From Pseudofrankia sp. DC12 (GTDB lineage Bacteria; Actinomycetota; Actinomycetes; Frankiales; Frankiaceae), in assembly GCF_000966285.1 (NCBI RefSeq), contig NZ_KQ031391.1:5518430-5582429 (forward strand): a stretch of 64,000 nt of DNA, written 5' to 3'. Both the position numbers and the translations under genes were made by a program. Below, piece by piece: positions 7,918-51,743 of this stretch (position 1 is its first letter; every line of letters begins with the position of its first letter). Under the pieces are notes generated by a model. It ran no database searches, was not told the origin of the DNA, and worked only from the letters and a program-made list of their open reading frames with translations.

Positions 7918-8211
7918 CAGGACAGACGACCGTAGGCTGACCCGTATGAGCCGCGCGATAGGGCTCTCACTGGGCGGCCGGGCGGGGTACCGTCCCCCGA
8001 AGGGGCGGTACGAGGCAGGACAGGCCAGGCACGGGAGGGCGACCTCCCGGCCCCGCCTGGTGGCGCCCGAGCTGGAGCGTCGGCCCTGGGGCCGGCCGCG
8101 GTGGGCGCCTGGCAAGGCCAGTGACAGTCTCGGCACGCGACGACCGGGCGGTGCGAGCCGCCCCCGACTTGCAGGCGACCCCATCGTCTGGACGAAGGGA
8201 CTGAGTCCTCG

Positions 8212-9504
<1,293 letters not shown>

Positions 9505-10227
9505 GGCGTCGCGGCCCGAACGGGCGCAGAGCGCCCGCGGGCCGCGACGCCGGGTCGGGCGCTGGGCGCCCTCCCCAACGCGGTTCTGTGTCAGGGGAGA
9601 GGCCCGCGGCGGAGGCTGGTCCAGGGTCGGGATCTGTGTTGGGTTCCGCTCGGGCGGTCGACCGGTCACGGCGCTGCGTGCCTTCCGTTAGCTTCCCGAG
9701 GGTCCCGGCTGTGACGGTCTTCTGATCAGGGGGATGACCCCCTGGAACCCCCAATGCCGGGGGACTCCGTCCCCCGGCACCCCCCTGGTCGCTCGCGCTT
9801 CGTCCGTCTGGTCCAGCGCGGACGCGACGGTGGCTAGCTGGGCGCGTCAGTGTCTGGTCGGCGTCGGGCGAGGACTGATGATCGCGACTTTGGCCCCTGG
9901 TGGTTGTTAGTTGGGCTTTGTCGCGACCGCGGGAGGCCGAAACGGGCCGGAACGGGTTGTCGGGGCTCGCGACGTCGACGCAGTCGTCCGGCGCCGGCAG
10001 CGCCGGGGCGCTGGTGACTCATACCTCGTGGTCGGGTTCGGCCGGAGAACGACGACCATCAGGTATGCCTCGCCGGCGTCGATGCCGGCGCGTGCGCTGC
10101 TCAGGCGCGCTGCCCGGCTCGTGTGGCCCGGCCCGGCCCGGCTCGGCTCCGCCCGGCTCGCGCCGCACGGCATGCTGTGCCGCTCGCGGCGGGCGGTGGC
10201 TGGTCGGCCGGCGGATAATCTTCGGGA
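9505..10227. other. Noncoding gap between clpX and folC (valS absent)
   Basis: This 723-bp stretch has no frame with a recognisable product on either strand. It holds two GC hairpins (9727-9779), and a 7-bp inverted repeat catacct/aggtatg near 10020-10067. In many actinomycetes valS lies between clpX and folC; nothing resembling a valyl-tRNA synthetase is present here. Confidence 0.7.
9727..9779 (+). terminator. Double GC hairpin downstream of clpX
   Basis: The first stem is CAGGGGG/CCCCCTG (9727-9744) with an ATGA loop. The second is an 11-bp stem tgccgggggac/gtcccccggca (9755-9779) with a three-base loop. They sit about 220 bases after clpX and could terminate it. The first hairpin resembles the one at 4319-4336. 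Confidence 0.5.
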
Positions 10228-11610
10228 GTGACGGACAACGGGCAAGACGGCGGGCGGCCGGCGGACGCTGAGTCGGCCGGCGAGGCACTGGCGGCCGGCG
10301 CTGAGCTGGCGCGGGTCGAGAAGGCGCTGGCCGGACGTTTCCCGCACAAGATGATCCCGGACCTGGAGCGGATCCGCGACCTGGTCGACCTGCTGGGCCA
10401 CCCGGAGCGGACCTTCCCGGTGGTGCACCTGACTGGGACCAATGGCAAGACCTCGACCGCCCGCATGATCGACTCGCTGCTCCGGGCTTTCGGCCTGCGC
10501 CCCGGCCGCTACACGTCGCCGCATCTGGAGAGCGTCACCGAGCGGATCAGCATCGACGGCCGGCCGGTGAGCGCGGAGGTGTTCGCCCGCGCCTATGACG
10601 ACGTCGCCCCCTATGTGGAGCTCGTCGACGGGCGGCATGCCGAGCGGGTCACCTTCTTCGAGCTGCTGACCGCGATGTCCTTCTCGGCGTTCGCGGACGC
10701 ACCCGTCGACGTCGGCGTGATCGAGGTGGGGCTGGGCGGGACCTGGGACGCGACCAACGTCGTCGACAGCCTCGTCCAGGTCGTGACGCCGATCTCGCTG
10801 GACCACCGCGAGCTCGGCTCGACCGTGGAGGAGATCGCGACGGAGAAGGCGGGCATCCTGCGGCCCGGCGCGATCGCCGTGCTCGGCCAGCAGCCGCTCG
10901 GGGCCGCCCGGGTGCTCGCCGCCAGGGCCGAGGAGCTCGGCACGACCCTGGTCCGGGAGGGCTTGGAGTTCGGCGTGGCCCGCCGGAAGGTCGCCGTCGG
11001 CGGGCAGATGCTGACGTTTCGCGGGCTAGGCGGCGACTACGACGAGATCTTCCTCCCGCTGCACGGTGAGCACCAGGCCCACAACGCGGCCTGCGCGCTC
11101 GCCGCCGTCGAGGCGTTCCTGGGCGGCGGGTCGAACCTGCTGGACCTTGAGGTGCTCCGGTCCGGGTTCGCTTCCACGTCCTCGCCGGGACGGCTGGAGG
11201 TGGTCCGCCACTCGCCGACGATCGTGCTCGACGGCGCGCACAACGTCGCCGGCGTGCAGGCGCTGGTCGCGGCCTTGGGCGACGCCTTCCAGTTCGAGAC
11301 GCTGGTCGGCGTCGTCGGGGTGCTCGCGGACAAGGACGCCCACGCGATGCTCAGCGTGCTGGAACCGGCGTTCGACTCGATCGTCCTGACGCAGAGCTCG
11401 TCCCCTCGGGCGCGTTCGGCCGACGAGCTGGGGGCGGTCGCGGTCGAGGTCTTCGGCGCCGACCGGGTCGAGGTCGCGCCCCGGCTGGACGACGCGATCG
11501 ACGCGGCGGTGCGGCTGGTCGAGGAGGACACGGAGCTCGGCGGCGGCGGCGTGGTCGTCACGGGCTCGCTCACCACCGTCGGCGAGGCCCGCCACCTGCT
11601 GGCTCGCTGA
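10228..11610 (+). CDS. folC: Folylpolyglutamate synthase / dihydrofolate synthase
   Basis: FolC adds glutamate to dihydropteroate and extends the polyglutamate tail of folates, using ATP. The 460-residue protein has the Mur-ligase-type P-loop GTNGKTS at 70-76. The downstream family motifs VGLGGTWDATN, SLDHRELGSTVEEIATEKAGI and VLDGAHN are intact. It starts at GTG 10228; a short hydrophilic N-terminus precedes the conserved core at about residue 28. The next gene is ndk, 194 bases downstream, as in other actinomycetes. The usual upstream partner valS is missing. Confidence 0.96.
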   Translation: MTDNGQDGGRPADAESAGEALAAGAELARVEKALAGRFPHKMIPDLERIRDLVDLLGHPERTFPVVHLTGTNGKTSTARMIDSLLRAFGLRPGRYTSPHLESVTERISIDGRPVSAEVFARAYDDVAPYVELVDGRHAERVTFFELLTAMSFSAFADAPVDVGVIEVGLGGTWDATNVVDSLVQVVTPISLDHRELGSTVEEIATEKAGILRPGAIAVLGQQPLGAARVLAARAEELGTTLVREGLEFGVARRKVAVGGQMLTFRGLGGDYDEIFLPLHGEHQAHNAACALAAVEAFLGGGSNLLDLEVLRSGFASTSSPGRLEVVRHSPTIVLDGAHNVAGVQALVAALGDAFQFETLVGVVGVLADKDAHAMLSVLEPAFDSIVLTQSSSPRARSADELGAVAVEVFGADRVEVAPRLDDAIDAAVRLVEEDTELGGGGVVVTGSLTTVGEARHLLAR

Positions 11611-44537: not shown

Positions 44538-45954
44538 CCTGGTGGACCGCACGGTCGAGTTCACGGCCGCCCTGCGGCGCGCCGGCGTGCCGGTGAGCAC
44601 GGCCGAGACCGTCGACGCGGCCCGCGCCGTCGGCGCGATCGGCTGGCTGGACCGGGAGGCCGTCCGGGCCGCCTTCGCGACCACGATGTGCAAGCGGCCG
44701 CTCTACCGCAATGCCTTCGATACGCTGTTCGACCTGTACTTCCCGCCCCGGATCGGTGACGGCGTCGCCGTCGGCAGGGACGGCGTCACCGGCCTCGGCG
44801 ACGGCGAGCCCAGCGGCGAGCAGCGTGAGCCGACCCGCGAGGAGCTGGACGCGCTGAAGAAGGCGCTGCGCGAGCAGCTCCAGCAGGCCCTGCTCGACGG
44901 CGACGACGAGTCGCTGCGTGACCTCGCCCGCCAGGCCGTCGCCGCGTTCGGCTCCGCCCCCGGCGGCGGGCAGAACGGCCGCTCGTGGTTCGTCTTCCGG
45001 GTGCTGCGCGCCATGTCCCCGGACACCCTGCTCGCCGCCCTGCTCGCCGCGATGCTCGGGCCGCAGGAACGCGGCGGGCTCGCCGAGCGGATCGCCCGGC
45101 AGACCATCACCGACCGGATCCGCTCCTTCGAGGAGATGATCCAGTCCGAGATCCGCCGCCGGATGGCCGAGGAGCGCGGCCTGCAGGCCACCGAGCGGAC
45201 CGCGGTCAAGCCGCTCACCGACCAGGTCGAGTTCCTGCGGGCCTCGCACCAGGACCTCGTCGAGCTGCGTCGCCAGGTCTACCCGCTGGCGCGCCGGCTC
45301 GCGACGCGGCTGACCGCCAAGCGCCGCTCCGGGCGCACCGGCCGCCTGGACTTCCGGCGTACCGTGCGCGCGTCGCTGGCGACCGGCGGAGTGCCGCTGG
45401 AGACCAAGCACCGGCCGCACAAGCCGCACAAGCCGGAACTGGTCGTGCTCTGCGACGTCTCCGGCTCGGTGGCGTCGTTCGCGCACTTCACCCTGATGCT
45501 TACCCATGCCCTGCGCGAGCAGTTCTCCAAGGTGCGGGCGTTCGGCTTCATCGACACGACCGACGAGGTCACCCGGTTCCTGCGCGGCGTCGACCTCGGC
45601 GACATGATGGGCCGGATCGCCAGCGAGGCGGACCTGGTCTGGTTCGACGGCCACAGCGACTACGGCCACGCCATCGAGGTCTTCGCCGAGCGCTACCCCG
45701 ACGCCGTCGGCCCTAGGACCTCCCTGCTCGTCCTCGGCGACGCCCGCAACAACTACCGCGCCACCGAGTCGACCATCTTCAGGCGCCTGTGCTCCCAGGC
45801 CCGCCACGCCTACTGGCTCAACCCGGAGCCGAAGTCCTACTGGGGCTCCGGCGACTCGGCGACCAAGGCCTACGGCGACATCGTCGACGAGATGGTCGAG
45901 TGCCGCAACGTCGAACAGCTCGAAGCCTTCATCGAACGCCTCCTGCCGACCTGA
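44533..45954 (+). CDS. VWA-domain protein of the CoxE type
   Basis: The 473-residue protein has an N-terminal helical region (VDRTVEFTAALRRAGVPVS) and a central Arg/Glu-rich segment. The C-terminal von Willebrand A domain carries the MIDAS motif DVSGSVASF. The end FRRLCSQARHAYWLNPEPKSYWGSGD is typical of the CoxE-like family. It is the standard partner of the MoxR ATPase encoded just upstream. The ATG at 44533 is the conserved start; the frame is open further back into the moxR end. Confidence 0.92.
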   Translation: MNLVDRTVEFTAALRRAGVPVSTAETVDAARAVGAIGWLDREAVRAAFATTMCKRPLYRNAFDTLFDLYFPPRIGDGVAVGRDGVTGLGDGEPSGEQREPTREELDALKKALREQLQQALLDGDDESLRDLARQAVAAFGSAPGGGQNGRSWFVFRVLRAMSPDTLLAALLAAMLGPQERGGLAERIARQTITDRIRSFEEMIQSEIRRRMAEERGLQATERTAVKPLTDQVEFLRASHQDLVELRRQVYPLARRLATRLTAKRRSGRTGRLDFRRTVRASLATGGVPLETKHRPHKPHKPELVVLCDVSGSVASFAHFTLMLTHALREQFSKVRAFGFIDTTDEVTRFLRGVDLGDMMGRIASEADLVWFDGHSDYGHAIEVFAERYPDAVGPRTSLLVLGDARNNYRATESTIFRRLCSQARHAYWLNPEPKSYWGSGDSATKAYGDIVDEMVECRNVEQLEAFIERLLPT

Positions 45955-46090
45955 TTGCCTGATCGGGCAAACTTCTGACGGATTCGGCGAAATTCGCTGG
46001 ACTCGGCTGGCACACTTCTCGTGCGGGGCCGTGACAGCGACCGAATGCTCGGACGCGGTGGCTTCCGCCCAGGTGTGCAGGGAGCCGACG

Positions 46091-46291
46091 ATGTTTAATT
46101 CCGCCGCCGACCCGATCATGACCGACAACGAGCCGCAGATATCCGCGCTCGACCACGCCCTCGCTCGCCGGGCCTCCGCCGACGGCGATCTGGTCAGTGG
46201 CGCCTACGTGCACAACTCTGGCCCGTGTCTGTTCCGGCCCCGCCGTTCCTCATCCGCGTCAGCCGCCCGGCCGGCCGCCGGCGAGAACTGA
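46091..46291 (+). CDS. Candidate RiPP precursor peptide upstream of the radical SAM maturase
   Basis: A 66-residue peptide starts at ATG 46091, about six bases after a GGGAG site. The N-terminal half looks like a leader (MFNSAADPIM ... ISALDHALARRASADGD). The C-terminal half holds GAYVHNSGPCLF and a basic, Ser/Ala-rich end. Two aromatic-Asn-Ser triplets, FNS and HNS, are present. It stops six bases before the radical SAM start, the usual position of a precursor gene. It does not end in the FxSxx motif of the classical FxsA precursors. The assignment is from position and size only; an untranslated leader is the alternative. Confidence 0.45.
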   Translation: MFNSAADPIMTDNEPQISALDHALARRASADGDLVSGAYVHNSGPCLFRPRRSSSASAARPAAGEN

Positions 46292-46297
46292 CGGGCG

Positions 46298-47575
46298 ATG
46301 CCCGCCGCGCTGCCGTGGCCGGTGCCAGTTCGCGGGCCGGCCACCGCGGGCTCCGCGCCCGCGGCGGCCCGGGCGGCAACGGCATGGGGTGCGCCATTGC
46401 CACCCGGGTGGACGCCTACGCCGTTCCGTGAGTTCGTGTTGAAGGTCGCGTCGCGCTGCAACCTCGACTGCGACTACTGCTACGTCTACCATCTGGCCGA
46501 TCAGTCGTGGCGAGCCCAGCCGCGGTTCATGACCGACGAGACGGCGGCCGCGACAGCGGACAGGATCGCCGAGCACGTGCGGACTCACGAGCTGGACTTC
46601 GTGAATTTCCGGCTGCACGGCGGCGAGCCGCTCCTCGCGGGCCCGGACCGGCTGCACCGGATCGTCCGCATTCTGCGCGAGCGCCTTGCCCCGCTGACGG
46701 AGGTCATCGTCACGGTGCAGACAAACGGGGTGCTGCTCGACGAGGCGATGGCGGCCTTCCTCGTCGAGGAGGACATCGGCGTCGGGATCAGCCTGGACGG
46801 CGACCGGTATGCCAATGACCTGCATCGCACCTATGCCGACGGCCGGTCCAGCTACGACGAGGTGGTCGCGGCTATTCGAATGATGCAGCGGCCCGAGTTC
46901 CGCTCGCATTTCCTCGGACTGCTGTGCACCATTCAACTGGAGGCGGACCCGGCCCAGGTTTGGGGCGAGTTGCTCAGACTGGGCGTGGAGGGTGCGGACT
47001 TCCTGCTCCCGCACGGCACCTGGGAAAACCCGCCGCCAGGCCTCACCCCGGGCGCCGGTCGAACCCCGTACGCCGACTGGCTGATCCCGCTGTTCGACAG
47101 CTGGTTCGACGCGCCGGCCCGGCAGCTCTCAGTGCGAACCTTCGAGTCGCTGTTGCATCTGCTGCTCGGGGGAGTGGGCGCCCACGAGTCATTCGGGCTC
47201 GCCCCGGTCGCGCTGGTCGTCATCGAGTCCGACGGCTCCTATGAGCAGGTGGACACGCTGAAGGCCGTCGGGCAGGGCGCTGCCGCCAGCGGTCGAACCG
47301 TGTTCACGGACCCGCTCGACGCGCTGTTCGACGTACCCGCCTTCGTGCAGCGCCAGCTCGGGCTGCACGGCCTTTCCGCCGAATGCCACCGCTGCGACGT
47401 CGTGGCGACCTGCGGGGCCGGGCTGTTCCCGCACCGCTACCGACCCGGCAGCGGTTTCACCAACCCAACCGTGTACTGCGCGGACCAGTACGCGCTGATC
47501 GCCCACATGCAGCGCCGCGTCGAGGACGCTCTCGACCGCCGGGGCACCACCCTGGCGGCCGTCCGCGCCGGTTGA
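46298..47575 (+). CDS. Radical SAM/SPASM peptide maturase, FxsB-like
   Basis: The 425-residue enzyme has the radical SAM motif CNLDCDYC (Cys54, Cys58, Cys61), directly followed by YVYHLADQSW, a hallmark of the FxsB-like maturase family. LHGGEPLL and VQTNGVLLDE are further radical SAM landmarks. A C-terminal SPASM-like cluster set is Cys363, Cys366, Cys372 and Cys394. Members crosslink or otherwise modify small ribosomal peptides. The metallohydrolase extension found in some FxsB proteins is absent. The Pro/Ala-rich first ~40 residues may be non-conserved; translation probably couples to the peptide gene. Confidence 0.87.
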   Translation: MPAALPWPVPVRGPATAGSAPAAARAATAWGAPLPPGWTPTPFREFVLKVASRCNLDCDYCYVYHLADQSWRAQPRFMTDETAAATADRIAEHVRTHELDFVNFRLHGGEPLLAGPDRLHRIVRILRERLAPLTEVIVTVQTNGVLLDEAMAAFLVEEDIGVGISLDGDRYANDLHRTYADGRSSYDEVVAAIRMMQRPEFRSHFLGLLCTIQLEADPAQVWGELLRLGVEGADFLLPHGTWENPPPGLTPGAGRTPYADWLIPLFDSWFDAPARQLSVRTFESLLHLLLGGVGAHESFGLAPVALVVIESDGSYEQVDTLKAVGQGAAASGRTVFTDPLDALFDVPAFVQRQLGLHGLSAECHRCDVVATCGAGLFPHRYRPGSGFTNPTVYCADQYALIAHMQRRVEDALDRRGTTLAAVRAG

Positions 47576-47640: not shown

Positions 47641-50289
47641 TCAGGCGTCGCCGGTGTGGAGGCCGAGCTCGCGAAGTGTGGCGAGGACCGCGTCGGCCTC
47701 GGCCAGGTGGTCCTGTTCGCGCAGGATCGCGAGGGCCTGCAACAGGGCGCCCTGTGCTCCGGCGGCGTCGTCCAGCGTGAGTCGGGCGGTAGCCAGCGCC
47801 CGCAGTGTGTTCGCCTCGCCGACCCGGTCGCCGCTGGTCTGGTGCACCACCAGCGATCGTTCGTAGTCCGCTGACGCCTCGGCCGCGTTGCCCATGGCAA
47901 GATGAACGTGGCCCAGGTCGCGCAGAATCAGGCCCTCGGCCTGTAGGTCGGTGCCCCGGCACAGATCGTAGGCCTCGTGGTACGCGCGCAGAGCGTCGTC
48001 GTACTGCCCGCGGGCCAGGTACGCGGGCGCGATCGCGTCCCGCAGCACGAATGCCTCGTCGCGATCGCGACTGCCAAGGGCTCGCCAGAGGTCGCGCGCC
48101 TGCTGGCCGAAGCTCAACGCCTGGTCATGGCGGCCGAGCTCCAGGGCGAGCTCGCCGAGGTTGGAGAGCGTCATCGCCTCGCCGACCTGGTCGCCGGTGC
48201 GCCGGGCGCCGGCCAGCGACTCCTCGTAGACCTCCCAGGCGCGGTCCAGGTGGCCCAGCGTGAGACAGGCGCCGCCGACGTTGGTCAGCGCCCACGCCTC
48301 GGCGGCCACATCCCCGGCCGCCCGCGCGGCCGCGACGGCGATTTCGCTCGCGGCCAGCCAGTCTGTGTCGAAGTGGCGCCGTTTGAAGAACGTGACGGGT
48401 GCGAGGGCGAGCTTCCAGGCGGCAACCGGGCGTGCCGTGGCCGCGGCCAGCTCGGTCATCGCGGTTAGGTTGTGCCGTTCGGCGTCGCACCAGGCGAGGG
48501 CCGCGTCGTGACCGCCGAACGCAGTCGTGGGGACCGCGGGCAGCGGGGCGTCGACCGGTACGTGCCGGCGTTGCGGGGCGAGCACGCGGTCGGCGGCGTC
48601 GGCGGCGCGCAGGTACCAGTCCAGCTCGCGGTCGAGCGCGTCCCGCCGGTCGTCGGCCGGTTCGTCCGCCCCGAGCCGCTCGGCCGCGTACTCGCGGACG
48701 AGGTCATGAAAGCGGTAGCGGCCACGGCTCGGCCGTTCCAGCACGCTGAACGCCACGAGGCTGTCCAGGGTGCGTCCTGCCGCGGCGGTCGGGATGCCCA
48801 GGAGCGCGGCTGCCGCGGCGGTGGGCAGCTCGCCGCCGGGGTGCAGCGCGAGCAGCCGGAACGCGCGGCGCAGCGGCTCGGAAAGGTTCCGATAGGACCA
48901 GGAGAAGACGGTGCGTACCGCTGAGCCCGGGTCTTCGTCGAGCCCGGCCAGCGCGTCCAGCCGGCCCCGGGCGTCGGCGAGCTCGTCGACCAGCTCGGCG
49001 AGGCTCAGCCCCGACAGCGTCGCCTGCTCGGCCGCGATCCGTAGCGCGAGCGGGAGGTAGCCGCACTGCCGGGCGAGTGCCGCTACCGGGTCACCCGGCA
49101 CCGACGGGGGATCGTCATTCGTCCCGTCCACCGCCGGCTGGCCGAGGCCCGCGCTGGTGAGCGTGCGCAGCAGGGCTTCCGCGTGGATCGGCTCCAGCGG
49201 CTCCAGCGTTATCCGCGTCGCGCCGTCCTGCACTACCAGGCCGGAGAGCGGTCCCCTCGTCGTCACGATGGCGGCGCAGCCGGGCGGCGGCAGCAGCGCC
49301 CGGACCTGGTCGACATTCAGCGCGTTGTCGAGGATGACGAGCACCCGCCGTCCGTCCAGCAGGTACCGGTACAGCTCCCCGAGTCCGTGCAGGCCGGTCG
49401 GAATCCGGGCGTCGTCCGCGCCCAGCGCGCGCACGAACCGGTCCAGGGCCTCCTCGGCAGACAGCGGTGGCTGCGGACTGTAGCCGCGAAAGTCGACGTA
49501 GAGCTGCCCATCGGGGAACTGGTCGCGGACCCCGTGCGCGACGTGCACCGCGAAGCTGGTCTTGCCGACTCCGGCCGGACCGCTGATCACTCCGACGAAT
49601 GCCCGGCGGTCATCCGGAGCGGCGAGGAGCTCGCTCAGCCGCTGGAAATGGTGGACCCGGTTGATGAACGCCGCGGCCTCGGGCGGGAGCTGACGCGGCA
49701 CCCGCAGCGGCGCGGGTGCCGGCATCGCGCTGGTGCCGACGGGGGAGGCCTCGACCGCGTCGGCCAGCATCAGCTGCGCGATGGCCTGGACGAGGCCGGC
49801 CTCCACCTGGGCGGGACTGGTGACCAACGTCGCGGTCAGCCCGCTGTCGAGCACCCGCTGCCGGAAGGCGGTCTGGCGGGCTGCCCACGGATCGAGGGCT
49901 GGCACCGCACCCGCAGCCCCCGCATCGCCAGCATCGGCGGCGAGCTGTGCCGCGGCCTCGTCGACCAGGTACACCAGGCGCCGCTTTCCGAGCGCCGTCG
50001 CGGTGTCGAACTCCAGTTCGGTGTAAGACCGCTCGGGATCGTCGCGGACCGGTGAGCCGTACCGGGTGCCGATGATGCCGACATAGAGGTCGCAGTTCTC
50101 GACCAGCGAGACGCACAGTTTCGCGGGCGGCCGGTCGTCGGCGGCAAAGTACGCCATGTCGACGGGAGCGTGCCGCAGCCTTTTCACCGCGTCCTCGGCG
50201 GCCGTCACCCAGGAACGGTCCGCCGGCCAACGCCGCATGTCTCCGGTATGGCTCAGGAAGACGCGCCAAGGCTGCCCAAGATCCGACAC
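47641..50289 (-). CDS. DUF4062/NB-ARC/TPR STAND-type NTPase
   Basis: The 882-residue protein starts with a TIR-like DUF4062 domain: RVFLSHTGDMRRWP at 9-22, then VDMAYFAADDRPP and VGIIGTRYGSPVRDDPERSY. A STAND/AfsR-type NTPase follows, with P-loop GPAGVGKT at 237-244, VLVILDNALN as Walker B, and CGYLPLALRIAAEQA of the GxP type. A winged-helix-like region and TPR repeats to the C-terminus complete it. There is no SARP DNA-binding domain. Similar proteins accompany FxsB-type peptide clusters, and here it converges on the maturase with 65 bases between. The GTG at 50289 is needed to keep the DUF4062 start. It could be a sensor, regulator or defence protein. Confidence 0.88.
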   Translation of the reverse strand: MSDLGQPWRVFLSHTGDMRRWPADRSWVTAAEDAVKRLRHAPVDMAYFAADDRPPAKLCVSLVENCDLYVGIIGTRYGSPVRDDPERSYTELEFDTATALGKRRLVYLVDEAAAQLAADAGDAGAAGAVPALDPWAARQTAFRQRVLDSGLTATLVTSPAQVEAGLVQAIAQLMLADAVEASPVGTSAMPAPAPLRVPRQLPPEAAAFINRVHHFQRLSELLAAPDDRRAFVGVISGPAGVGKTSFAVHVAHGVRDQFPDGQLYVDFRGYSPQPPLSAEEALDRFVRALGADDARIPTGLHGLGELYRYLLDGRRVLVILDNALNVDQVRALLPPPGCAAIVTTRGPLSGLVVQDGATRITLEPLEPIHAEALLRTLTSAGLGQPAVDGTNDDPPSVPGDPVAALARQCGYLPLALRIAAEQATLSGLSLAELVDELADARGRLDALAGLDEDPGSAVRTVFSWSYRNLSEPLRRAFRLLALHPGGELPTAAAAALLGIPTAAAGRTLDSLVAFSVLERPSRGRYRFHDLVREYAAERLGADEPADDRRDALDRELDWYLRAADAADRVLAPQRRHVPVDAPLPAVPTTAFGGHDAALAWCDAERHNLTAMTELAAATARPVAAWKLALAPVTFFKRRHFDTDWLAASEIAVAAARAAGDVAAEAWALTNVGGACLTLGHLDRAWEVYEESLAGARRTGDQVGEAMTLSNLGELALELGRHDQALSFGQQARDLWRALGSRDRDEAFVLRDAIAPAYLARGQYDDALRAYHEAYDLCRGTDLQAEGLILRDLGHVHLAMGNAAEASADYERSLVVHQTSGDRVGEANTLRALATARLTLDDAAGAQGALLQALAILREQDHLAEADAVLATLRELGLHTGDA

Positions 50290-50534
50290 AGCAGGAAGCT
50301 ATCGCCTCGGCCCCGGGTCCGGGGTCAGAACCCCGGCACCACCCGGCTCGGCCACGCGGCCGCTCCGGTGTCGCCTGGTCGCGTGCCCGTGCCCGCGCCG
50401 TCGCCGCACGAGCCGGCAGACCGAGGCGGGTCGCTCGACGTTTTGCGCGGATGTGAACCGTTCGTGGATCAGGCGCGTCCAACGTCATGCGTGGTGCCCG
50501 GGGCGCACCGCCCGGACTGACGAGGAGCGCGGCC

Positions 50535-51743
50535 ATGACCGTGGACGAGAGGCTGGACGCCCGGGAAGGCCCAGGTGCTGGCCGCACGGAGGTGGCCGAG
50601 GGACGGAGCCTCCCGTTGCCCGGCGGCCGCCGGTTACGGGTGACCGGCCGTCGCGTGCTCGCCGGCGTGGTCGGGCTGGCCGTCGTGGTCGCCCTGACAG
50701 CCGTGCTGGGCACGGCCGTCGGCTCCCACGGTGGCGAGAGCTCGAGCAGCAGCACGAGCGGTGCGGACATGGCCGTCCCGAAACCGGCCGAGGCTGCTGG
50801 GATCGGCGTGGGCGCCGACTCCGCCGGCCCGGCCGCTAGGGTGGCGGCGGTCCCCACGAACTCCGGTGTGGCACCCCCGACGAGCGGTGACTCGGGGGCG
50901 GGCCGGCCGGCCGGAGTCCAGCCGCGGATCGTCTGGACCGGTTCGGTCAGCGTCGAGGTGCTGGCCGGTGCCGTCGCTCCTTCCATCCGCAAGATCTCCG
51001 CCGCGGCACAGGGACTGGGCGGCTACCTTTCGGCCAGTCAGATCACCGGCACGGCGACGACCAGTGACGGCGTTCCGCAGTCCGCGACGATCTCCATCCG
51101 GGTGCCGGCCGCCTCGTTCGGCAAGCTGCAGGACGCCGTCACAAGCGTCGGCACCGTGAACTCGTCGACGACGTCCTCACAGGACGTCACCGCCCAGTAC
51201 GTCGACCTGCAGGCCCGCGAGGACGCGCTGACGACCTCCCGGAGCACCTACCTGACCCTGCTGTCGAAGGCGACGACCATCGGCGACATCCTCGCCGTCC
51301 AGCAGCAGATCGACGGCGTGCAGACGCAGATCGAGCAGATCGAGGGCCAGCGCAAGGTCCTCGCCGACCAGAGCGATCTGGGCACCCTGACGATCGACCT
51401 CACCGAGAAGGGCGCCGAGGTCCACAAGCCGGGCCAGGAGAACGGGTTCGTGCACGCCTTCCGCGTCGCGGGCCGCAGCTTCCTGCGCGGCCTGGAGGGC
51501 ATCATCTCCGCGCTGGGCGTGGTCGCCCTCATCGCGCTGGTCGGCGCCGTCCTCTACCTGCTCTACCGGCTGCCGGGCCGGCTCCGACGTCGTACCAGCG
51601 ATCGCGCCGCCGGTGCGACGGGCGGCCGGGCGGTTCCCGCGGCACCTGTCGGCGCCGCGAACGCCAAGCCCGCCGAGGCGGCCGGCCGGCCGGTCGCCTC
51701 GGACGATGAGCCCTCCACCGGGACGACGAGCGGCGAGGGCTGA
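50535..51743 (+). CDS. DUF4349 membrane protein
   Basis: The 402-residue protein has a membrane segment near residue 45-62 (VLAGVVGLAVVVALTAVLGTAVG). An extracytoplasmic DUF4349 domain follows (GGYLSASQITGTATT, IRVPAASFGKLQDAV) with a coiled coil (TTIGDILAVQQQIDGVQTQ). A second helix is near the C-terminus (VVALIALVGAVLYLLYRL). It starts at ATG 50535 behind GAGGAG. The function is not known; some homologues are described as putative lipoproteins or stress-response factors. It stands alone and converges with pgm. Confidence 0.88.
   Translation: MTVDERLDAREGPGAGRTEVAEGRSLPLPGGRRLRVTGRRVLAGVVGLAVVVALTAVLGTAVGSHGGESSSSSTSGADMAVPKPAEAAGIGVGADSAGPAARVAAVPTNSGVAPPTSGDSGAGRPAGVQPRIVWTGSVSVEVLAGAVAPSIRKISAAAQGLGGYLSASQITGTATTSDGVPQSATISIRVPAASFGKLQDAVTSVGTVNSSTTSSQDVTAQYVDLQAREDALTTSRSTYLTLLSKATTIGDILAVQQQIDGVQTQIEQIEGQRKVLADQSDLGTLTIDLTEKGAEVHKPGQENGFVHAFRVAGRSFLRGLEGIISALGVVALIALVGAVLYLLYRLPGRLRRRTSDRAAGATGGRAVPAAPVGAANAKPAEAAGRPVASDDEPSTGTTSGEG

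Follow-up and report, generated by a model that had tools for sequence, protein, structure and literature searches.

Pseudofrankia sp. DC12, whose genome is a single contig of 6.88 Mb, carries a confirmed precursor/maturase gene pair in which a 66-residue peptide is encoded directly upstream of an FxsB-type radical SAM/SPASM enzyme. Enzymes of the FxsB type belong to the maturases that introduce strained rings into small peptides, and it is from the FxSxx end that their precursors take their name. The peptide described here is not of the FxsA kind. With moderate confidence we consider the pair to be a RiPP precursor of a new family together with a cyclophane-forming, triceptide-type maturase, i.e. 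an FxsB-type system that has lost the FxSxx core; the cyclophane chemistry itself we infer. The window is the whole stretch of 64,000 nucleotides that was analysed, and the features discussed are collected in Table 1.

Table 1. Features of the precursor/maturase locus, with positions counted from the first base of the window.
Feature	Position	Strand	Basis
AGGGAG ribosome-binding site of the precursor gene	46079..46084	+	Read directly; ends 6 bases 5' of the start ATG
Precursor peptide gene, 66 residues	46091..46291	+	Kept in 6/6 orthologous loci; coding-type pN/pS
Leader stretch SALDHALARR, residues 18-27	46142..46171	+	A19, L20, A23, L24 and R26 invariant in 11/11 clade peptides
Candidate core GAYVHNSGPCLFRPR, residues 37-51	46199..46243	+	Y39, H41 and S43 are candidate cross-linked residues
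Radical SAM/SPASM maturase, FxsB-type, 425 residues	46298..47575	+	TIGR04269 score; ChlB structural match
CNLDCDYC radical SAM cluster motif, residues 54-61	46457..46480	+	Cys invariant in 69 rows compared
Gln213 codon, clade-specific replacement of a near-invariant Asp	46934..46936	+	Gln in 11/11 clade rows; Asp in 90/91 others
Asp319 codon	47252..47254	+	Aligned to anSMEcpe residue 277 (Asp) in 4k37; Asp in 102/102 rows
SPASM-region C-terminal Cys set C363, C366, C372, C394	47384..47479	+	Invariant in 69 rows compared
P0003, 882 residues, DUF4062 + NB-ARC region + TPR, accessory partner	47641..50289	-	Pfam; at 8/11 clade loci

The two genes are separated by 6 bases. A first-pass annotation made from the letters alone had given their coordinates, the length of the peptide, the CNLDCDYC and YVYHLADQSW motifs and the C-terminal Cys set, and all of these were found as described. 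The same applies to the peptide's own ribosome site. A similar G-rich site and the same ATG are present in all six Frankiaceae copies; longer in-frame starts are listed in only two of the six.

The 66-residue peptide is the product of a genuine, co-inherited gene. With the maturase as query, FxsB-like matches at E<=1e-30 were obtained in 25 of 35 Frankiaceae genomes, six of which hold an orthologous maturase (77-100% identity, the next best being 52%). A profile built from the six peptides matched strongly (E<=3e-29) in exactly these 6/35 genomes, and any matches in the remaining 29 were weak (E>=9e-4, at most 150 candidates scored per genome). When 393 genomes of the class were searched with 15 candidates scored per genome, the same six matched strongly (E<=3e-29) and five further genomes gave weaker peptide-profile matches (6e-5 to 9e-4). 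The corresponding maturase search at E<=1e-125, with four candidates scored per genome, returned the six orthologues plus L035 and L135 only, whose maturases are 52-53% identical to that of the window and both fall outside the clade described below.

The proposal that the peptide frame would prove conserved, with coding-type substitutions, held in 6/6 genomes with an orthologous maturase. Over the 34 codons from SALD to RPR the differences number 28, 45 and 173 at codon positions 1, 2 and 3, and pN/pS is 0.19 in frame, while the two shifted frames give 3.2 and 1.8; 13 synonymous changes separate the window from its nearest relative, with no non-synonymous one. Constraint on the last 15 codons is relaxed (pN/pS 0.71, five genomes) and the peptide of locus L015 ends two residues past the core, the rest of the tail being absent, so that the constraint lies on the middle and the core. 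The expectation of a constant core at the C-terminus thus had to be given up: the C-terminus is the relaxed part of the peptide (0.71 as against 0.19 for the rest), and the constant core lies before it.

Five further members came from one scan of 84,980 species for the patterns DCDYCYV and YHLADQSW, in which members without both patterns are missed. Among the best 80 of 89 loci were maturases with 60-63% identity from Nocardia aurantia, N. pneumoniae, N. rhizosphaerihabitans, Actinoallomurus purpureus and Actinomadura sp., all five with a small gene and a plausible ribosome site directly upstream. In a maturase tree that took in 102 of 111 rows, the six Frankiaceae, three Nocardia and two Thermomonosporaceae genes form an 11-member clade with 100/100 support within the FxsB group. 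A different small gene as the constant partner, which had been named as the outcome that would speak against the pair, was not seen: the peptide gene lies directly upstream at 10/10 other clade loci, and among 42 other or overlapping small frames (25-130 codons) between positions 45600 and 50600 those matching clade loci all overlap a large gene.

The FxsB-like nature ascribed to the maturase is borne out by its score of 474.4 bits on the FxsB model TIGR04269 (cut-off 370; positions 1-362 of 363) and by the seven Cys of the CxxxCxxC motif and the C-terminal SPASM set, which are invariant in 69/69 rows (11 clade, 31 canonical-group and 27 extended). The clade relatives scanned (5/5) reached 461-484 bits on the same model. 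On the YhhB model NF041707 the maturase scored 358.9 bits, below the cut-off of 445. It is without the C-terminal extension of related proteins of about 715 residues. The absence of what had been called a metallohydrolase extension therefore stands, while the term does not, as current descriptions make that extension an aKG-HExxH hydroxylase (model name; PMC12636437, in the part available). One extended relative (L081) has an aKG-HExxH domain in its extension and scored 494.6 bits on NF041707.

An AlphaFold2 model of the maturase (mean pLDDT 83.6) had ChlB structures as its best Foldseek match (E 4.4e-36, TMt 0.91, 37% identity), ahead of anSMEcpe (E 6.7e-20); according to their titles, the matched ChlB structures were solved with the leader region of the precursor and with a ChlA mutant. 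Asp319 of the maturase is aligned with Asp277 of anSMEcpe, the catalytic base of that enzyme. PADLOC assigned a partial viperin match across the radical SAM core. Position 213 sets the clade apart, with Gln throughout; among the other rows, the extended ones included, the single departure from Asp is a Ser in L016. The replacement suggests that the reaction or the substrate position may differ from those of known FxsB enzymes. Gln213 follows two residues after strand 205-211 of the model, and since a residue at such a strand end usually points toward the active-site side in this fold, Gln213 is predicted to do so as well.

The constant core of the Frankiaceae peptides reads GAY[VA]HNSGP..F.PR. 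HNS occurs in all six, HNSGP being identical in the six genomes, and Y[VA]H is likewise present in 6/6; both provide the aromatic-x-residue motif of the triceptides. This motif is short and frequent by chance, and it is its conservation that constitutes the evidence; triplets alone say little, because 52% of peptide shuffles contain an [FYWH]xS triplet. Attention had been drawn to two triplets in the window peptide. HNS is the one that has been kept, while FNS (residues 2-4) is present in 2/6 peptides only and was ruled out as the core. The Nocardia cores are AAYAHTSN, AAYAHSSN and TAYAHNTN, and Y-x-H-x-[S/T] is found in 9/11 clade peptides. The other two, from the Thermomonosporaceae, end in RYECTSWSSG plus four residues. 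MAFFT did not align YECTS with YxHxS; that the one corresponds to the other is our reading.

Three precursors upstream of FxsB-like enzymes outside the clade also contain HxS motifs. Those of Sphaerisporangium rufum (L074) and Nocardia bovistercoris (L088), with the maturase starting at 8001, have long C-terminal repeats in which FSS and HSS are mixed, an arrangement that would be suited to many small rings made one after another; the mixture of FxS and HxS suggests that His may stand in the place of Phe. The S. rufum enzyme scored 432.8 bits on the FxsB model. The third, a Frankiaceae precursor (L024), ends in ISAHTSTTHNSSFSQGTW.

The lone Cys, in which the first-pass annotation saw a sign of a different core, was confirmed as a single residue in 10/11 clade peptides but not as a fixed one. 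It is residue 46 in 5/6 Frankiaceae peptides, precedes the core in L015, L060 and L061, lies within YECTS in L062 and L071, and is absent from L059. The case for Cys as the modified residue is weakened by this shifting position and by its absence in L059.

These observations bear on the possibility that the pair is real but performs other chemistry, i.e. a Cys thioether, an epimerisation or another C-C or C-N bond. In its favour are the replacement of Asp213 by Gln throughout the clade and the presence of exactly one Cys near the core in all but one of the peptides. On the other hand, that Cys moves between relatives and is dispensed with in one of them, the spacing of Tyr, His and Ser/Thr is fixed in nine of the eleven peptides, and the characterised enzymes and curated models that match best are of the cyclophane-forming kind. 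We regard other chemistry as rather unlikely, albeit as an alternative of some weight.

The lack of an FxSxx end, already remarked on for the window peptide, extends to 11/11 clade peptides. At E<=1 the window peptide matched no NCBIfam or Pfam model, TIGR04268 included, and at E<=10 eight other clade peptides (all but L013 and L014) matched no NCBIfam model; two canonical FxsA controls (L018 and L035) matched TIGR04268 with 40.5 and 35.3 bits (cut-off 28). Against solved chains the clade peptides had no match at E<=10. By reading, the window peptide contains neither an RxD motif nor a run of four acidic residues. Profile comparison of the leader with the canonical FxsA leader by hhalign gave a weak match (P 0.028, probability 1.7%). 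When the window and nine clade loci were searched by pattern for frames with an FxSxx end, three turned up: two are chance frames, 32-33 codons long, that overlap the maturase, and the third does no more than span a stop; none was FxsA-like. At 31 comparison loci of the FxsB group a nearby FxSxx-ending peptide was found in 12, to which L065 and L069 (VFESAL) add two; in most of the remaining loci the peptide has a related FxS form followed by a tail, and in a few no such peptide was seen. One of these loci, L065 of Streptomyces stelliscabiei, contains two FxsB-like genes about 7 kb apart (1632-2795 and 9576-10751).

Could the peptide be a short regulatory or toxin-like protein that is merely co-transcribed with the maturase and is no substrate at all? 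Its C-terminal part is basic (RPRR), in line with such a role, but its position, the 6-base spacing and the co-inheritance fit a substrate, and the peptide gene precedes 11/11 clade maturases with no other constant small gene in the vicinity; we consider this explanation very unlikely. An ordinary canonical pair, with the true FxSxx precursor elsewhere and the upstream frame a degraded FxsA, could draw on the weak leader similarity and on the canonical FxsA genes near other Frankiaceae FxsB loci, but it is hardly credible given that the genome has no TIGR04268 match above the cut-off (best 19.6 bits versus 28, among 150 of 458 candidates) and a single FxsB match at E<=0.001, that the peptide frame is under strong purifying selection with HNSGP identical in six genomes, and that no FxsA-like frame with an FxSxx end exists in the window or at the nine clade loci.

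The gene downstream of the pair encodes P0003, in which Pfam recognises DUF4062 and TPR above the cut-off and NB-ARC just below it (21.6 versus 23.5). PADLOC assigned it a TPR model. It matched the FxSxx_TPR model NF040586 with 59.2 bits, below the cut-off of 300, and HaaT partially with 251 bits (cut-off 1125). No PDB match at E<=0.001 was obtained for the DUF4062 region; plant TIR domains are among its best matches (3e-3 to 6e-3), mixed with higher-ranking unrelated folds, and a TIR-like fold of this region is suggestive only. P0003 or a homologue adjoins the pair at 8/11 clade loci. In three Frankiaceae and the three Nocardia it faces the pair; in the two Thermomonosporaceae it lies on the upstream side and is directed away from the pair, and there the match to P0003 begins only at about residue 185, the DUF4062 part being absent. 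Close P0003 orthologues (78-79%) were found solely beside the pair in the eight genomes searched. Three pair-bearing genomes are without P0003, G029 among the genomes with the pair alone, and since it is missing at 3/11 clade loci P0003 is not needed for maturation and was ruled out as an obligatory partner.

Two same-genus genomes without the pair were compared with the window. Similarity to the window ends at the end of the VWA gene (45959 and 45955, respectively) and resumes at 50427 in one genome and at 50903 in the other, and in the 7-9 kb fetched from each there is no copy of the pair or of P0003. With similarity breaks on both flanks, the behaviour of the pair together with P0003 is that of an accessory block. 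The upstream MoxR and VWA genes were ruled out as part of the system, the VWA gene being present in 34/35 Frankiaceae genomes. No protease or transporter gene was noticed in a non-systematic look at the locus.

Eight FxsB loci of relatives have an FxSxx_TPR gene some 2 kb downstream of the maturase and pointing toward it. FxSxx_TPR-like matches at E<=1e-30 number 20 in G029, 30 in G030, 21 in G033 and five in the genome of the window, some proteins matching more than once. FxsC (TIGR04276) had no match at E<=1e-5 in the genome of the window, and the sole TIGR04267 match above the cut-off lies about 0.84 Mb from the locus. Outside the window, the same genome has what is possibly a second, unrelated peptide-modifying locus (G000:C1:6408167-6411273; L173:4168-7274). 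There a gene that matches the aKG-HExxH peptide hydroxylase model above the cut-off overlaps the beginning of a radical SAM gene, in which a B12-binding-like region and, at the C-terminus, a very weak PqqD-like part are recognised.

If the pair is indeed a triceptide-type system, the maturase would hold the leader stretch SALDHALAR and generate a 5'-deoxyadenosyl radical, which would abstract a hydrogen at the beta-carbon two residues downstream of an aromatic one, and this beta-carbon would then be joined to the aromatic ring. Within AY[VA]HNS, Tyr39, His41 or both would donate the ring, and His41, Ser43 or both would accept it, giving a product with one or two small rings, each with a mass change of -2 Da. 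Judged from the peptide sequences, Y-x-H-x-[S/T] may offer both a Tyr-to-His and a His-to-Ser/Thr bond. The single Cys near the core in 10/11 clade peptides speaks against a pure Tyr/His/Ser scheme, which leaves it unused. The product might act in or near the producing cell, either as a signal to the adjacent NB-ARC/TPR protein present at most loci or as a weapon controlled by it.

A more specific proposal combines these elements: fused rings, with Tyr39 joined to the beta-carbon of His41 and the His41 imidazole joined to the beta-carbon of Ser/Thr43, Asp213Gln as an adaptation to the His acceptor, and the product as a ligand sensed by the adjacent NLR-like TIR/NB-ARC/TPR protein. All parts taken together, we think this distinctly improbable.

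On the preferred reading of a cyclophane-forming pair, the clade shows that a branch of FxsB can switch its substrate motif and keep the gene order. The switch is marked by a single fixed replacement, Asp213 to Gln, close to where a predicted core strand ends, and offers a direct handle on the enzyme residue that governs which residues serve as ring donor and acceptor. Precursors of this kind are missed by FxSxx-based models, as none of the nine peptides scanned (of 11) matched an NCBIfam model. The frequent NB-ARC/TPR neighbour bears on what Fxs peptides are for. What appears to be new is the precursor family and the distinct FxsB branch; the kind of system is already known.

The description of the locus as an undescribed system was accordingly too strong, because FxsB-type systems with NB-ARC/TPR partners have been described (PMC7159879, in the part available) and only the peptide type and the enzyme branch appear undescribed. 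A literature search returned no paper on this peptide type, and the supplements of triceptide/SPECO surveys may still list the pair. In triceptides, which are three-residue cyclophanes, an aromatic ring is bonded to the beta-carbon of the second residue after it, and the pairs reported in the part available of PMC11002830 include Tyr-Asp for YxdB, His-Ala for HaaB and ScaB, Tyr-Arg and His-Arg for YhhB, and Phe-Ser for MscB. HaaB and ScaB, which occur with HaaT, share with the present system the His-based cyclophane chemistry that we propose, and P0003 has its partial match to HaaT; the core here is AYVHNS, in contrast to their His-Ala-Ala. YhhB and ChlB, in which the radical SAM domain is fused to aKG-HExxH, have the same radical SAM fold, and the radical SAM domain of ChlB is the closest solved structure. 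The present enzyme differs in having no C-terminal HExxH domain and in staying under the NF041707 cut-off, and in the alignment ChlB has Asp at the position of Gln213.

FxsA/FxsB with FxSxx_TPR is alike in its small upstream peptide, its FxsB-level enzyme and its downstream, facing NB-ARC/TPR gene. However, the present peptide is without the FxSxx end and without a TIGR04268 match, the enzyme belongs to a separate clade with Gln for Asp at 213, and the neighbour is far below the NF040586 cut-off (59 versus 300 bits). Kaur et al. 2020 described FxSxx peptide-processing systems in which a radical SAM/SPASM enzyme is accompanied by a TIR/AP-ATPase/TPR protein encoded separately, and proposed that the FxSxx peptide is a toxin or a signal (PMC7159879, in the part available). 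Compared with their standalone type, as distinct from the FtsH-associated one, a radical SAM/SPASM enzyme, a small peptide and an AP-ATPase(NB-ARC)/TPR protein are common to both, whereas the N-terminal part of the AP-ATPase/TPR protein is TIR in their systems, as far as that part of the source goes, and DUF4062 here, TIGR04267 reveals no HExxH gene at the present locus, and the peptide is of a type other than FxSxx.
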